64,000 bases of DNA from Methanospirillum hungatei (lineage in GTDB: Archaea > Halobacteriota > Methanomicrobia > Methanomicrobiales > Methanospirillaceae): positions 1,798,001 through 1,862,000 of the forward strand of contig NZ_CP077107.1 of the NCBI RefSeq assembly GCF_019263745.1, given 5' to 3'. Below the pieces are notes generated by a model. That model had not been told where the DNA came from. It searched no databases and saw only the letters and a list, made by a program, of their open reading frames with translations. Made by a program: the position numbers and the translations under genes. Positions 28,075 to 62,773 of the stretch are shown piece by piece. Position 1 is the first letter of the stretch. Each line of letters starts with the position of its first letter.

Positions 28075-28455
28075 ATGCCCGGAATATTAGTTGTTGATGG
28101 CAAACCCACACATCGGGACTATTTGGCTGACATATTAACTAATGCCGGATATCAGGTAACCGGAAAAGCATCATCCGGTGCTGAGGCAATATCATTGTTT
28201 CATCAGAATAAGCCTGATCTCGTAACGTTGGATCTGATAATGCCGGATATGAATGGTATGGACCTTCTGAAAGTCATGAAAGGGACCAGTCCGTCAGTCT
28301 CCTTTCTCATCTGTACCTCAATTTATCATGAGATGATCCCTGATCTTGCGAAAAGAACCGGAGCTGAAGCTTTGTTTCAGAAGCCTGTTTCAGCTTCAAA
28401 CCTCCTTGAAACAGTATCTGCGATCATGGGAACACCATCCCTGCAAACACAATAG
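28075..28455 (+). CDS. Stand-alone CheY-like receiver with altered acidic pocket
   Basis: This is a 126-residue single REC domain. The ATG at 28075 matches the starts of the two paralogues at 33259 and 33700; the frame is open further upstream only over non-coding DNA and permease shadow. The phospho-acceptor Asp53 (LVTLDLIMPDMNG), the Thr/Ser of ICTS and the Lys of FQKP are kept. The normally acidic pair at the end of strand 1 reads Asp8-Gly9 instead of Asp-Asp, so Mg2+ binding and phosphorylation may be weak. It has no output domain, so it probably acts by protein contact. It has its own promoter. Confidence 0.9.
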   Translation: MPGILVVDGKPTHRDYLADILTNAGYQVTGKASSGAEAISLFHQNKPDLVTLDLIMPDMNGMDLLKVMKGTSPSVSFLICTSIYHEMIPDLAKRTGAEALFQKPVSASNLLETVSAIMGTPSLQTQ

Positions 28456-28468
28456 AATATATCGGTAA

Positions 28469-28495
28469 TTGATCCGGGAAGGGAACCCGGATCAA
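28469..28495. terminator. Strong hairpin after the first receiver gene
   Basis: TTGATCCGGG and CCCGGATCAA form a perfect 10-bp stem around a seven-base loop, 14 bases after the receiver stop codon. A short A-rich stretch, not a T run, follows on the plus strand. It may end or protect the receiver mRNA, or be the first element of a small RNA. Confidence 0.55.
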
Positions 28496-28521
28496 GAAAA
28501 GTTTATGGGGTGTATCCATTT

Positions 28522-28589
28522 CCGGATTCAGGCAGATTATTGTGCGGGGAGTGCTGGATGGGGGGTTTAAATGTATCTGCCTGAACCGG
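28522..28589. repeat. Long interrupted hairpin, 15-bp stem
   Basis: CCGGATTCAGGCAGAT (28522-28537) pairs with ATCTGCCTGAACCGG (28575-28589), giving 15 base pairs with a single bulged base. The 37-base loop is G-rich (several GGGG runs). Such a stem is unlikely by chance in a non-coding gap and is the best evidence for a structured transcript here. Confidence 0.6.
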
Positions 28590-28696
28590 TCATGTCTCTT
28601 CTGGTTTCATTAATTCCTCTGGTGAGGACGGCATACCGGATGGGTAGGTGTGGGGCTTTACATGGAACAGCTTTGGTATCACCTCCAGTCATTTCC

Positions 28697-28716
28697 GTGC
28701 AGGATTGTTCCTGCGC
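28697..28716. terminator. Short hairpin followed by a T/A-rich stretch
   Basis: GTGCAGGA and TCCTGCGC form an eight-pair stem (one G-U) with a TTGT loop. The plus-strand sequence after it is rich in T and A (TATAGTTATATTTACATT). It could be the 3' end of a small RNA beginning near 28480. Confidence 0.45.
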
Positions 28717-28810
28717 ATGTATAGTTATATTTACATTCTGTTATATCTACTTTCCTCATGGACAAGCATACTCAGCATTTTGTTATCGCTAGCACGCATC
28801 GACCATGAAT

Positions 28811-29014
28811 TTATGAGGAATTCTCTTCAAAAATAAATATCTCTTCAATCGTAACTTGAAACCTACGGGCCATTCTAAACGCTAATTCAAGGGACGGATC
28901 ATATTTTCCCTTTTCAATAGCGAGAATGGTTTGCCTGGTAACACCAACTTCCCTGGCAAGATCTTCTTGCGTTAGATCATACATCGCACGGAAAACCTTG
29001 ATTTTATTCTTCAT
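28811..29014 (-). CDS. XRE-family transcriptional regulator paired with DUF2178 protein
   Basis: This is a 67-residue protein that is almost only an HTH: TQEDLAREVGVTRQTILAIEKGKYDPSL. The start is the ATG at 29014, directly behind GGAGGGGAGG; the longer frame to 29071 is a shadow of the upstream gene. It overlaps the end of the DUF2178 membrane protein gene by 11 bases, so both are translated together. Small XRE regulators of this type commonly sit next to DUF2178-like or similar four-helix membrane proteins, perhaps forming a membrane-linked regulatory pair. Confidence 0.9.
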   Translation of the reverse strand: MKNKIKVFRAMYDLTQEDLAREVGVTRQTILAIEKGKYDPSLELAFRMARRFQVTIEEIFIFEENSS

Positions 29015-29426
29015 CCTCCCCTCCGGCACCAAATTTTCGCTCGTACCAGGAGATGAAGAGGATGTAGACAATTATCATCAGAAAGACAATAAACATGAGA
29101 AGGAATGAAAAACGAGCTATCTGATAAGAAAAAGGACCGAATGTATCTCCCCCGATACTAATAACCACACCTCCAAGAGCATATGAAAAAAGAGTTATTC
29201 CCATAACCTGAAGGGTTCTCAAAGATGCCTTCTCAGTGATAAGATGAGAACGTTCATCAGTAATTACATCATCCACCATCTGCCTTGAAATCCAGGCAGC
29301 AAGTACCCCAATTACTACAGCTCCGGTCATAATCAGGGGTTCAAGGTTCTCTACTGACCAGTAAAATATTCCAACCTCGAGGATTGCGATGATACCTAGG
29401 AGAAGGAAATATGTGTATTGCTTCAT
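29004..29426 (-). CDS. DUF2178 family membrane protein
   Basis: This 140-residue protein has four predicted helices (about 4-24, 30-50, 74-95, 105-128). It has the family motif DDVITDERSHLITEKAS between helices 2 and 3. The start at 29426 (MKQYTYFLLLG) is chosen because the first helix follows at once; the frame upstream to 29516 is non-coding. The function is unknown. Its gene leads a two-gene operon with the XRE regulator and is divergent from the large kinase gene. Confidence 0.85.
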   Translation of the reverse strand: MKQYTYFLLLGIIAILEVGIFYWSVENLEPLIMTGAVVIGVLAAWISRQMVDDVITDERSHLITEKASLRTLQVMGITLFSYALGGVVISIGGDTFGPFSYQIARFSFLLMFIVFLMIIVYILFISWYERKFGAGGEDEE

Positions 29427-29537
29427 AATGCTTTGTAACGGATTAGTGTATCTACCCCGAATAGGATAATGATATTTGTCAATATACCAGATAAAACCCC
29501 GATCAGGCTCTTGCATATGACAAGCAGGTGGATTTGA

Positions 29538-32174
29538 ATGGAGTCAGAACCTCCGATACAAGTATTGTTTGTAGATGATGAACCGGGCCTGCTTTCTGCG
29601 ATCCGGGATTATCTGACGATCGTATATTCAATCGGAGTTGAGGTTTGTAATTCGGGTTCTGATGCCCTGACCAGAGAAGATCTGTTTGCGTTTGACTGCC
29701 TCATTATCGATTATGAAATGCCGGATATCGATGGGATTGTTCTGTTAACTGAAATCCGGTCGATGAATCAGGATATTCCGATTATTTTTTTTACCGGAAA
29801 AGGACATGAAGAAGTTGCGATACAGGCGATCAATGCAGGAGCAGATTATTACATAAAGAAAGGCGGAAATCCAGAAGAACTCTTTACGGAACTCGCGCAT
29901 TATATCCATAAAGGAGTGCGAAGATATCGGGCAGAAAAGTCACTTGTTGAAAAAGAGCGCCAATATCGGGCTGTCGTCGAGGATCTCACAGAATTTGTCT
30001 GCAGATTGGATCCAGACGGTGTCATCATCTTTGTGAATTCGGCATTTCTCAATAACCTTCAGGTTCCTTATGACATTTTAAGTGGAGTAAACTTTCATTC
30101 TCTCTATCCAGATCATCAAGGAAAGATACAGGACATTATCGAGTTTTGTGACCCAGATAATCCGTCAGCAGAGATAGAATTACCATTTACCGGGGTACAC
30201 GGAAAAATAATCTGGCACCAATGGACAATTCGGGTCATCTATGATAATGTATTTAATATACTGGAGATCCAGGCTGTCGGAAGAGATATTTCCAAACAAC
30301 GCGAAACAGAAAGGCAAGAATCTGTTCTACGCAATCTGGGACTCTCTCTTGCAACCAGTTCATCTACTGAAGCGGCATTGAATTCATCCCTTTCTGCTGC
30401 AATTGAGATAAGTGAGTGTCAGACAGGAGCAGTATATCTTCACAACCGCATGAGTGGAAAACTCACACCCTTTCTTGAACAGGGGCCATATCGGGCAGCA
30501 TTATACAGATTTTTAGAGGATTTTTTCAAAAATCAGAATGATATACTCCTTGCCCCAGGTAATCCAGTATATGTCAGCCTGACAGATCTGCACCAATATG
30601 AAACCCGATTCTCTTCATTTGCATTTATTCCGATCCTTCGTTTTGGAGATATCATGGGTTGGATTATTCTTGCATCAGACAACCTGGCAGAAATACCTTT
30701 TGAAATCAGGCATCCACTTGAGGGTGTTACATCACAGATTGGAAATGTAATTTCAAGAATTGAAGCCGAGGAAGCATTACGTGATGCACTCATTGAAAGT
30801 GAAGAGCGGTATATGCAACTCTCTGAAACATCGCCGGATGCAATCGCAATTCTCACCGATGGTACCATTGTATACCTCAATCCCGCGGCAAATGCTTTAT
30901 TTGAAACCGCAAATATGGATGATTTTTTTCGAAAGCCTTTTCATGATTTGTTGGATGCAGATTTACAAAAGTGGTTTGAGGGCATCATTAAAACAAAGAT
31001 TCGAGGTCAGGGTCCTTCGACCGGAGAAGGATTTCTCATGACAAAAAGTGGGAAAAGGATCTATGGGGAATTAATCACCGTGCCAATATCTCATGCAGGT
31101 GAAGATGCAATTCTCCTCCTCATTCGGGATAAAACCAGTCAGAGAATGCAGGAGCAGGCACTCATTGAGAGTGAACGCCGGTTTCGGGAGATGGCAGATC
31201 TCCTACCGGAACCACTTTTTGAGGCTGATATCCAGGGAAATCTTACTTTTTGCAACAGGGGAGTTACCGCATTATTTGGAAGAACAAATCTTCAGGATCC
31301 AAACATATGCAAGATCTACGAACTTGTATCAGAGCAGGAACATCTTCGTTTTTCAACTATTCTCAATAAGGTAGCTGCGGAACTGAAACCAATGACTGGG
31401 GATTTTATCGCCGCCGGTGATACCGATGAACCTCGAATCATTCACCTTTCTCTGGCGCCGGTTATCAAGAATGACCAGTTTTCAGGAACACGAGGTATCC
31501 TGGTAGATATTACAGAAAACAAGCGGTACCAGGAGAAACTCCATCATATGATCGAAGAGAAAGATGTTCTTTTCAGGGAGCTTCATCACCGGGTAAAAAA
31601 CAACATGCAGATAATCTCCAGCATGCTCCAGCTTCAGGAGGAGTACATTTCTGATGATGTAATACTATCAGCGCTTCATGATTGTGAGCAAAGGATAAAT
31701 TCAATGGCCCTTGTTCATGAAACATTATATCGGACCGAGTCACTTGCAGAAATCCCCTTTGATCATTACCTTGAAAATTTGTCCCAGGCAGTCACCGAGG
31801 GATTTGCAACCGTACGGGATATCAGAACTGATATTGATGTCGGAGGGATAAGACTCAGTCTGGACACATCGGTCACGATTGGTCTGATTGTGAATGAACT
31901 CATGGTCAATTCAATGAAATATGCTTTTGTTGATCGGCCATCAGGTGTGATCAGGATCAAACTGGCATGTAATGACGAATCCTGTTTGCTTGAATATTCT
32001 GATGATGGGGTGGGTCTTCCAGCAGGATTTGACATCGAGAAAACATCGAGCCTAGGAATGAGACTGGTACGAATTCTTGCTAGACAGATACGGGGTAAAT
32101 TATTGATAGAGAATGGTGTGGGGGCAGGTATGATATGTTCAGTACAATTCCCAAAACAGGGAGGGAGAAAATGA
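29538..32174 (+). CDS. Multi-domain histidine kinase: REC-PAS-GAF-PAS-PAS-HisKA_2-HATPase
   Basis: This is an 878-residue soluble kinase. The order is a receiver (8-125; phospho-Asp in LIIDYEMPDIDG, Lys in YYIKKGG), PAS (about 142-255), GAF (about 272-415), two PAS (about 430-540 and 548-660), HisKA_2 with phospho-acceptor His683 in RELHHRVKNNMQ, and HATPase with NELMVNSMKYAF and DDGVGLP. No membrane helices are present, so it senses cytoplasmic signals and can itself be controlled through its receiver. AGGTGGAT precedes the ATG. It overlaps the next kinase by four bases (ATGA). Confidence 0.93.
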   Translation: MESEPPIQVLFVDDEPGLLSAIRDYLTIVYSIGVEVCNSGSDALTREDLFAFDCLIIDYEMPDIDGIVLLTEIRSMNQDIPIIFFTGKGHEEVAIQAINAGADYYIKKGGNPEELFTELAHYIHKGVRRYRAEKSLVEKERQYRAVVEDLTEFVCRLDPDGVIIFVNSAFLNNLQVPYDILSGVNFHSLYPDHQGKIQDIIEFCDPDNPSAEIELPFTGVHGKIIWHQWTIRVIYDNVFNILEIQAVGRDISKQRETERQESVLRNLGLSLATSSSTEAALNSSLSAAIEISECQTGAVYLHNRMSGKLTPFLEQGPYRAALYRFLEDFFKNQNDILLAPGNPVYVSLTDLHQYETRFSSFAFIPILRFGDIMGWIILASDNLAEIPFEIRHPLEGVTSQIGNVISRIEAEEALRDALIESEERYMQLSETSPDAIAILTDGTIVYLNPAANALFETANMDDFFRKPFHDLLDADLQKWFEGIIKTKIRGQGPSTGEGFLMTKSGKRIYGELITVPISHAGEDAILLLIRDKTSQRMQEQALIESERRFREMADLLPEPLFEADIQGNLTFCNRGVTALFGRTNLQDPNICKIYELVSEQEHLRFSTILNKVAAELKPMTGDFIAAGDTDEPRIIHLSLAPVIKNDQFSGTRGILVDITENKRYQEKLHHMIEEKDVLFRELHHRVKNNMQIISSMLQLQEEYISDDVILSALHDCEQRINSMALVHETLYRTESLAEIPFDHYLENLSQAVTEGFATVRDIRTDIDVGGIRLSLDTSVTIGLIVNELMVNSMKYAFVDRPSGVIRIKLACNDESCLLEYSDDGVGLPAGFDIEKTSSLGMRLVRILARQIRGKLLIENGVGAGMICSVQFPKQGGRK

Positions 32175-33241
32175 CACAGGTTCTGATCGTAGAAGATGAG
32201 GCGATCGTTGCAGAATCTATTGCATCAAAATTACGCAGATATGGATATGAAGTTGTGGACACTCTCCCGACTGGAGAAGAAGCAATTGAAGAGGCAGGAA
32301 AAAGCAGACCTGATGTAATCCTCATGGACATACACCTTGCAGGAAAAATCGATGGAATACAAGCTGCAAACCTGATATCAACTCAATATCATATTCCGGT
32401 CATTTTTCTCACGGCATATGCAGATGAACAGACAATAGCACGTGCCAAGGATTCAGGACCATTCGGATATCTGGTCAAACCATTCCGGGAACGGGATCTG
32501 CATGTTACCATAGAAATGGCACGTGAGCGATCAAGACTTGAGAATGAACTTGCGGCAGCTAACCGGGAACTTGATTCATTCAGTTACTCAGTCTCACATG
32601 ATCTACGGGCGCCTCTTATTGCCATAGACGGATACTCTCGTATTCTTGAAGAAACATATGCTGGATATCTCCCACCGGATGGGATAGAATGCCTCAGCAG
32701 GATAAGGCAGGCAGCAAACCAGATGGATCATCTCATTGAGGACTTTTTACGGCTGTCACGGGTGACACGGGCGCCTATACAGATGGTTCATCTTGATATT
32801 ACGAAAATGGCTACTGAAATCCTGAACCAACTCGCACTGAATGATCCTGATCGCTCTGTTCAATGGGCTGTTGATGATGGACTTATTGCATTTGGTGATA
32901 AAGGTTTATGTGAGATAGCCTTGAAAAATATCCTTGGTAATGCCTGGAAATATACAATGCGTACACAAAGTGCGCAAATCGAGGTTGGAAGCATGATGCA
33001 GGGGCAGACGAAGGTCTTTTTCGTAAAAGACAACGGAGCAGGGTTCCCACCAGAAAAATCTCATCTTCTCTTCGCCCCTCTTCAGAGACTCCATCCGTAC
33101 CAGGAATTTCCCGGAAATGGGATAGGCCTTGCAACCGTCCAGAGAATTATCCACCGACATGGAGGAAGGATCTGGGCTGAAGGATCTGTAGGAGAAGGAG
33201 CAACATTTTCCTTTACTCTTCCGGAAAAACAGGATAGATAA
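32171..33241 (+). CDS. Hybrid kinase: REC-HisKA-HATPase
   Basis: This is a 356-residue protein. Residues 1-120 form a receiver (Asp53 in LMDIHLAGKIDG, Lys in LVKPF). A short coiled coil follows, then HisKA with His143 in SYSVSHDLRAPL and HATPase (NAWKYT, DNGAGFPP, GNGIGLATVQRIIHRHGG). The start is the ATG at 32171, which overlaps the stop codon of the upstream kinase. The likely flow is phosphotransfer from the first kinase to this receiver, which then sets its own kinase activity (inference). A stand-alone receiver follows after 17 bases. Confidence 0.93.
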   Translation: MTQVLIVEDEAIVAESIASKLRRYGYEVVDTLPTGEEAIEEAGKSRPDVILMDIHLAGKIDGIQAANLISTQYHIPVIFLTAYADEQTIARAKDSGPFGYLVKPFRERDLHVTIEMARERSRLENELAAANRELDSFSYSVSHDLRAPLIAIDGYSRILEETYAGYLPPDGIECLSRIRQAANQMDHLIEDFLRLSRVTRAPIQMVHLDITKMATEILNQLALNDPDRSVQWAVDDGLIAFGDKGLCEIALKNILGNAWKYTMRTQSAQIEVGSMMQGQTKVFFVKDNGAGFPPEKSHLLFAPLQRLHPYQEFPGNGIGLATVQRIIHRHGGRIWAEGSVGEGATFSFTLPEKQDR

Positions 33242-33258
33242 CAACGTGGAGCCAGTGA

Positions 33259-33654
33259 ATGCCTACAATACTCATCATTGACGACGAAGAACTTGACAGA
33301 AAAGTATTACATTCTATCCTCCTTTCTGCAGGGTATGAAGTGATTGGAACAGCCAGAAGTGGTGAAGAGGGCGTTGAACTTTGTAAGACACTCAGGCCAG
33401 ATCTGGTTACTATTGATCTTATGATGCCAAAGATGAACGGAATAGAAGTTCTTATCAGTCTCATGAAAGAGAATAACAAAACAAAAGCCCTGATATGCAC
33501 CTCAGCACATTCTGACCCGGTTGTTGACCTTGCCATGAGACATGGGGCGAAAGGGTTTATCATCAAACCATTCCAAGCAAAATCGCTGTTATCTACAGTG
33601 AAGGAGGTTATTGGAGACCCTGATCCTGCCCGTATGAATATTTGGAATTTTTAA
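33259..33654 (+). CDS. Stand-alone CheY-like receiver
   Basis: This 131-residue single REC domain has a complete pocket: Asp8-Asp9, Asp53 in LVTIDLMMPKMNG, Thr/Ser in ICTS, Lys in IIKPF. It lies 17 bases after the hybrid kinase and is probably its output. It is closely related to the receivers at 33700 and 28075. No DNA-binding or enzymatic output domain is attached. Confidence 0.93.
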   Translation: MPTILIIDDEELDRKVLHSILLSAGYEVIGTARSGEEGVELCKTLRPDLVTIDLMMPKMNGIEVLISLMKENNKTKALICTSAHSDPVVDLAMRHGAKGFIIKPFQAKSLLSTVKEVIGDPDPARMNIWNF

Positions 33655-33699
33655 TTTCCAACCCGGATATTACAATCATCCTCAAACAGGTTACAAAAC

Positions 33700-34074
33700 A
33701 TGGGAATACTGATTATTGATGATACTGATTTTGATCGAAATCTTCTTCGGTCAATTCTTGCTTCTGCCGGTTATGAGATTGCAGGACTTGCGAACTGTGG
33801 TGAAGAGGGAATACGCCAATATGAAGCTCTTGCACCTCAGCTTGTCATGCTGGATCTCATTATGCCGGATTTAAATGGTATTGAAGTACTCAGGCGAATC
33901 AGGGCAGAGCACCCGGATGCAAAAGTGATGATGTGTACCTCTGTTGGCGAGGAGAATATGGTTACACTTGCACGAAAAATGGGAGCCCGAGGGTATGTAG
34001 TCAAACCATATATTGCAGAAAACCTCCTGAGTGCAGTAAAAAAGATAATTGGACCTCCCGGGAAAGAATTTTAG
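33700..34074 (+). CDS. Stand-alone CheY-like receiver
   Basis: This is a 124-residue REC domain with Asp7-Asp8, Asp52 in VMLDLIMPDLNG, Thr/Ser in MCTS and Lys in VVKPY. It is a paralogue of the preceding receiver, and the two probably arose by tandem duplication. A 45-base gap separates them. It ends the signalling island; the next gene converges from the other strand. Confidence 0.92.
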   Translation: MGILIIDDTDFDRNLLRSILASAGYEIAGLANCGEEGIRQYEALAPQLVMLDLIMPDLNGIEVLRRIRAEHPDAKVMMCTSVGEENMVTLARKMGARGYVVKPYIAENLLSAVKKIIGPPGKEF

Positions 34075-62468: not shown

Positions 62469-62773
62469 AGACTATTTTGAGCTTTTTGTTTATAGTTGAT
62501 AGCATTCCTTTTTGCATTATGTGTCCAAAAAAAGAAATACATTTCTTATGCGACCATTTTTAACCTTTACAAATACCGGACATTTATTTTTGAGAGATAA
62601 TATATCTTCACTGAGTTGATAATGGATGACAATCCATATAATAAGTCATTCGGAGAAAATTTTTACATTTTAACATGTGCACCAATATCCTTTATTCACA
62701 TACAGGATTCAGATAATCATTGAAAAAAGGCATTTACATCACCAGGCTCTCTATAATATCTTAAACACGGACC
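62469..62773. other. Divergent promoter region between aglB and the flippase-like gene
   Basis: This stretch of 305 AT-rich bases holds the promoters of both genes; CTATAATATC (62751-62760) is a TATA-like element close to the plus-strand gene. A 33-codon frame, 62622-62723 (MDDNPYNKSFGENF...), has a TATA-like GATAATATATC (62595-62605) at leaderless distance and could be a tiny gene; evidence is weak. No RNA gene or repeat was seen. Confidence 0.4.

Follow-up and report, generated by a model that had tools for sequence, protein, structure and literature searches.

Three small RNAs of Methanosarcina mazei are the closest described systems. According to the account cited, sRNA162 acts in trans by covering a ribosome-binding site with a single-stranded linker, and its 5′ end additionally targets a cis-encoded mRNA (PMC3510493). 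In a second account sRNA154 is described as having two loops, loop 2 being anti-ribosome-binding-site, and sRNA41 as masking ribosome-binding sites, at several sites (PMC5867862). In open-access PubMed Central we found studies of archaeal sRNAs for Methanosarcina, haloarchaea and Sulfolobus and none on an sRNA of Methanospirillum. The open-access literature there on Methanospirillum sRNA and RNA-seq and on structured RNA of the Methanomicrobiales leaves the RNA reported here undescribed.

We analyzed a stretch of 64,000 nucleotides (the window) from the genome of Methanospirillum hungatei GP1, a single contig of 3,393,136 bases, and conclude that its gap at 28456–28810 very likely holds an unannotated minus-strand gene for a structured RNA of ~250 nt (Table 1). 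The cited account of the published GP1 genome counts two ncRNAs (PMC8359780). Rfam models place a single RNase P RNA and a single SRP RNA (C1:140338–140636 and C1:2299921–2300233) in this genome, both outside the window, and therefore the RNA of the gap is very probably absent from the published annotation. With Rfam 15 no match at the gathering threshold was obtained in 28300–28900, the best sub-threshold matches at the locus (E 0.73–2.7) being far below gathering scores. RNase P RNA (RF00373) and SRP RNA (RF01857) were rejected as candidates, neither model matching at the locus and the genome having both elsewhere.

An earlier note on the window had described this gap as the longest one free of genes, carrying three inverted repeats and more structured than any other. 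All three repeats were found where it had placed them. The stem 28469–28478/28486–28495 has 10 of 10 positions paired; the large stem has a perfect 11-bp core (28527–28537/28575–28585), which CCGG/CCGG beyond one bulged base lengthens to 28522–28589; and the repeat at 28697–28716 comprises eight pairs, one of them G-T. The gap is indeed the longest (355 nt vs 305 nt for the next). When the gap was folded, none of 100 shuffles was equally stable on the minus strand (z = −5.58) and six of 100 were on the plus strand (z = −1.61); the inverted repeats are clearly beyond chance on one strand only, the minus strand. A window-wide survey covered eight gaps of more than 150 nt, and in no other of them does z drop below −1.5 on either strand (here −6.7 on the minus and −2.6 on the plus strand, for a gap of 548 nt into which the rough ORF calling of the survey had fused the small HTH gene; the true gap is 355 nt). 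The second-longest gap under this calling (62469–62773, 30% G+C) has an ordinary fold on both strands.

Table 1. Features of the RNA locus and its neighbors (window coordinates)
Feature	Position	Strand	Basis or remark
Structured RNA gene	28466–28718	−	5′ end ~28718 and 3′ end ~28466, both inferred (promoter layout; terminal hairpin)
Promoter	28719–28757	−	GAGGAAAG (28750–28757), GATATAA TATA box (28741–28747), then TGTAAATATAACTATAC
P1, 5′ hairpin GCAGG-N6-CCTGC	28697–28716	−	Core pairs constant in 9/9
Possible leaderless mini-ORF	28689–28718	−	9 codons in window, 12 in 8 other homologs; translation putative
Invariant GGAGGTGATACC	28675–28686	−	9-nt match to complement of 16S 3′ end
Conserved C-rich segment A, CCCCACACCTACCCATCC	28638–28655	−	Alignment
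P3 hairpin TCCTC-ACCA-GAGGA	28615–28628	−	Retained in clade 2 mostly via one-sided changes to G-U; not formed in G003
P5, large stem–loop	28522–28589	−	Arm pairing, covariance model, compensatory changes
Conserved C-rich loop B within P5, CCCCCCATCCAGCACTCCCCGCAYAATA	28538–28565	−	Alignment; one base shorter in G005
Invariant segment C, ATACACCCCAT	28505–28515	−	Identical in 9/9
3′ terminal hairpin, probable terminator or end stabilizer	28469–28495	−	6/6 clade-1 sequences; weaker, different fold in clade 2 (3 sequences)
Receiver-domain response regulator, convergent neighbor	28075–28455	+	PF00072, E 1.3e-21
HTH_3 regulator, upstream of RNA, same strand	28811–29014	−	PF01381, E 4.4e-16

The orientation that the earlier note implied has to be reversed in strand, in promoter position and in 5′–3′ order, as the RNA is predicted on the minus strand. 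The TATA-like element noted there at 28456–28464 sits where the RNA has its 3′ end, and the A/T-rich sequence adjoining 28697–28716 is the putative minus-strand promoter rather than a terminator tail. We take this block next to P1 to be an archaeal promoter of textbook layout for the minus strand. The center of its TATA box lies 26 nt upstream of the A of an ATG, and the TATA block is identical in all eight homologs whose sequence extends that far. P5 has eight G-U pairs on the minus strand compared with one A-C mismatch, the counterpart of a plus-strand G-U pair. The raw minimum free energy is lower for the antisense strand in 9/9 homologs, and in four of the nine the P5 duplex is also stronger on that strand, as is expected of a G-rich strand. 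No long T-run follows the 3′ terminal hairpin. We propose a noncoding RNA gene that stands by itself, is specific to the genus and has its own TATA promoter on the minus strand; its transcript, about 250 nt long, would start at or beside the A of the ATG (28718) and end after the hairpin 28469–28495. We infer transcription, the exact ends and, further below, every targeting step.

Relatives of the gap were detected by BLAST in eight of 60 related genomes, each of them one of the 11 Methanospirillum genomes besides GP1. With a sequence-only model nine of the 12 genus genomes match (E 1.7e-65 to 4.7e-52, scores that are high by construction since the model was built from those nine sequences), and nothing above chance was found in G001, G006 and G011 (64, 75 and 88% complete as a set). 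In G001 and G006 the best relatives of the HTH protein are 55–62% identical, comparable to the paralogs within GP1 (48–55%), and in G011 no HTH relative passed E 1e-8. With relatives that are only paralog-like or absent, these three genomes may either have lost the locus or lack it in their assemblies. The nine sequences form two clades, clade 1 with the window, G008, G002, G005, G010 and G009 and clade 2 with G003, G007 and G004. Invariant blocks are common to both clades, the P5 arms differ widely between them, and single-stranded blocks are conserved as well as stems.

The sequence-only model was also run over 232 genomes of the order, including 220 from outside the genus, and gave some match at E ≤ 0.1 in 35 genomes. 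The best matches outside the genus (5.1e-4 and 9.1e-4, about 19 bits) were taken as chance, and no convincing relative was found by this model in the 220 genomes. As judged by this sequence-only search of the order, the RNA is restricted to the genus. An exact 19-mer of loop B occurs in nine records among the GTDB species genomes, and five of the nine have the RNA (MAGs of Methanospirillum or Methanomicrobiales, and M. stamsii). The other four (a cyanobacterium, a Firmicutes MAG and two Methanoregula MAGs) were rejected, their flanks being unrelated. The 19-mer had no matches in viral contigs.

The proposal of a candidate small RNA holds up in these homologous loci, which keep the main stem by compensatory change. 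Using only the flanks of the conserved loop and no structural alignment, we obtained pairing energies of −21.5 to −29.2 kcal/mol for the P5 arms of all nine sequences (z −3.5 to −6.3), a pairing reached by none or one of 1000 mononucleotide shuffles per sequence. A covariance model made from three clade-1 sequences finds P5 in 9/9 (E 2.3e-32 to 4.4e-8), the clade-2 scores coming partly from the loop sequence; in a 464-kb sample including the window it rises above chance only at the RNA site. In the resulting alignment 94.1% of 152 cells pair, and 17 of 18 pairs are changed on both sides, so that P5 passes the check for compensatory change suggested by the earlier note. The covariation score is 0.616 compared with 0.014–0.074 with slid partners (0/500 shuffles). 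This alignment was fitted to the structure and its numbers lean towards it; the unfitted arm test is free of that bias. RNAalifold on a plain alignment did not recover P5, because the arms do not align between the clades, and P1 is silent on covariation since its core pairs never vary in the nine sequences. Taken computationally, these results support RNA-level selection on the P5 stem.

The P5 compensatory changes, together with the single copy and the conservation of single-stranded blocks like that of stems, also speak against the view that there is no RNA, and that conservation here reflects an element of the DNA itself, a mobile repeat or hairpins clustered by chance. This view can point out that the RNA is predicted here from DNA sequence; we regard it as very improbable. 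A MITE-like mobile repeat was considered and rejected, as there is one full copy in the GP1 genome, the next match being 19 nt long (E 0.56).

A protein-coding gene across the RNA was rejected, since the distances between blocks 2 and 3, 3 and 4, and 4 and 5 vary modulo 3 among the nine homologs; on neither strand is the frame of a conserved protein kept. The exception is the first 31 nt, with 12 codons in eight of nine homologs and nine in the window. The transcript could be a leaderless mini-mRNA, beginning with AUG and encoding an Arg-rich peptide of 12 residues (nine in the window), with a mini-ORF stop overlapping GGAGGUGA and a structured 3′ part, that is, a dual-function RNA. The ATG stands at the predicted start site in 9/9, the 12 codons are found in eight of them, and the same promoter block and an ATG in the same register precede a gene for a 46-aa protein. 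Twelve stop-free codons are, however, to be expected by chance, there is free variation at codons 4, 5, 9 and 10, the frame is shortened in the window copy by a 1-nt insertion, and the Arg codons that are conserved coincide in part with hairpin P1 and the GGAGG motif. We consider a mini-mRNA improbable.

The second promoter site is known from several genomes. A 43-nt promoter stretch also matches it in G002, G008 and G009 by BLAST. When five genomes were scanned with the start-proximal 21 nt, allowing up to three mismatches, the RNA locus was found in all five and the second site in G002 and G009, with a single additional match (three mismatches) in G009. The block before the 46-aa gene is also present in G010 and recognizable in G006. 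This site (L024, L025, L026; L089–L093) precedes the ATG of the gene for the 46-aa, membrane-type protein, and the RNA's own ATG, kept in 9/9, occupies the same position relative to the promoter. The 46-aa genes apparently are leaderless, their ATG being at the expected transcript start. No Pfam match was found for the protein, and GP1 itself has no match to this protein at E ≤ 0.1. The gene that follows reads, by its translation, like subunit H of an A-type ATP synthase.

The RNA lies in a constant gene neighborhood. The order purH, DUF3821 protein, CitMHS transporter, response regulator, RNA, HTH, DUF2178 protein and PAS/histidine kinase is identical in five 9-kb stretches (L027–L031), and the visible part of two shorter loci (L010, L017) agrees; families were assigned by Pfam for the window copies and from translations for purH and the genes of the relatives. 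This constancy of the site in most relatives examined, and the position of the hairpin 28469–28495, 14 nt past the stop codon of the response-regulator gene, would fit a cis regulator, either the RNA itself or a plus-strand 3′ UTR of the response-regulator gene, which controls that gene or the HTH gene. But in G005 (L012, 278–1845) no response-regulator ORF of at least 80 aa lies between transporter and RNA and the RNA is intact, the minus strand is favored by G-U counts, fold z and promoter, and the predicted end of the RNA stops short of the response-regulator coding sequence. Control in cis appears distinctly improbable. No link of the RNA's function to two-component signaling, genes for which the earlier note had pointed out nearby, came to light. 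In the window, receiver-domain and histidine-kinase genes form a run from 28075 to 34074, whose small receiver proteins at 33259–33654 and 33700–34074 resemble the one at 28075–28455.

The predicted fold, with 5′ hairpin, large P5 and 3′ hairpin, appears to leave three invariant C-rich segments largely unpaired: CCCCACACCWACCCAUCC (A), CCCCCCAUCCAGCACUCCCCGCAYAAUA (loop B) and AUACACCCCAU (C). We therefore propose a trans-acting sRNA masking G-rich ribosome-binding sites. The C-rich segments, loop B above all, would pair with such sites in mRNAs, and the pairing would block or alter translation of the targets. The segments were compared with 235 start regions, which a simple rule had picked out in 400 kb, or 12%, of one genome. 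Loop B pairs better than every one of 80 shuffles that preserve runs, and in its preference over coding controls it surpasses 78 of the 80; 67 of 80 shuffles were as good as segment A or better, and 37 of 80 as good as segment C or better. With plain shuffles the numbers were 0 for B, 36 for A and 16 for C of 60. One weak positive in three segment tests is a lead only.

In seven genomes no convincing target was found among long complements of segments A and B. G002, G008 and G000 share a complement of segment A with two to three mismatches, which lies within the same conserved coding sequence some 68–70 codons from its start (L149, L150, L166); it is probably a protein motif, a target inside the gene being less probable. 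A guide for rRNA was rejected, as against 23S and the 3′ part of 16S rRNA A, B and C were no better than shuffles (25, 33 and 58 of 60 as good); box motifs of C/D and H/ACA modification guides were judged through Rfam only. At the 3′ end of 16S rRNA the GGAGGUGAUACC segment does pair, in the manner of a ribosome-binding sequence (4/60 shuffles as good).

The missing conserved long complement for A and B would also be expected if the C-rich segments were protein sites and the RNA a scaffold or sponge that acts by no mRNA pairing. The segments are letter-for-letter constant over 15–28 nt in both clades, which is longer than a pairing seed needs. The start-region preference of loop B, on the other hand, is not predicted by protein binding, and we know of no candidate protein; we hold a protein-binding RNA to be unlikely, though worth keeping in mind. 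For trans masking of ribosome-binding sites as the best explanation we count the conservation in nine of 12 genomes, the P5 compensation, the loss of frame, the strand-specific fold z, the G-U counts, the promoter, loop B and the precedent of the three M. mazei sRNAs, and against it the shuffle results of A and C, the missing long complement, the antisense energies and the 3′ hairpin lost in clade 2. Given a real structured minus-strand RNA, pairing with ribosome sites is a tentative reading which falls somewhat short of an even chance.

A more far-reaching idea is a new class of archaeal translation-associated RNA, in which a leaderless AUG mini-ORF leads into a perfect 9-nt ribosome-binding sequence and three invariant C-rich segments are presented to ribosome-binding sites. 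We think this a long shot. If true, the RNA would act on both the 30S subunit and a large number of mRNAs, regulating translation throughout the genus, and because the start-proximal promoter block also stands before ATP synthase genes, it could follow energy status.

Methanospirillum is a model for syntrophic methane formation, and an RNA of 250 nt with invariant loops and a covarying stem can be targeted precisely by probes in strains that grow in culture. Found in a narrow lineage, it is also an example for studying the origin of lineage-specific regulatory RNAs. Should the leaderless AUG and the exposed C-rich segments prove important, the RNA would in addition give a handle on translation control in methanogens.

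In comparison with known systems, this would be a new RNA of a general kind already known, the archaeal intergenic sRNA, for which we propose a plausible mechanism. Archaeal RNase P and SRP RNA resemble it in length, structure and single copy and differ in that no family model matches here. Unlike sRNA162 as described in the account cited above, the Methanospirillum RNA has no predicted overlap with a coding sequence; the two would share the masking of a ribosome-binding site in trans by an unpaired segment, which is here a proposal only. From sRNA154 and sRNA41 it differs in belonging to another archaeal order, in its length of ~250 nt and in the large P5 loop, and Rfam gave no match that would point to a sequence relation. 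With these two, as far as the cited account describes them, it has in common that it is an intergenic RNA of a methanogen, found in a narrow lineage, whose exposed segments could lie opposite ribosome-binding sites.
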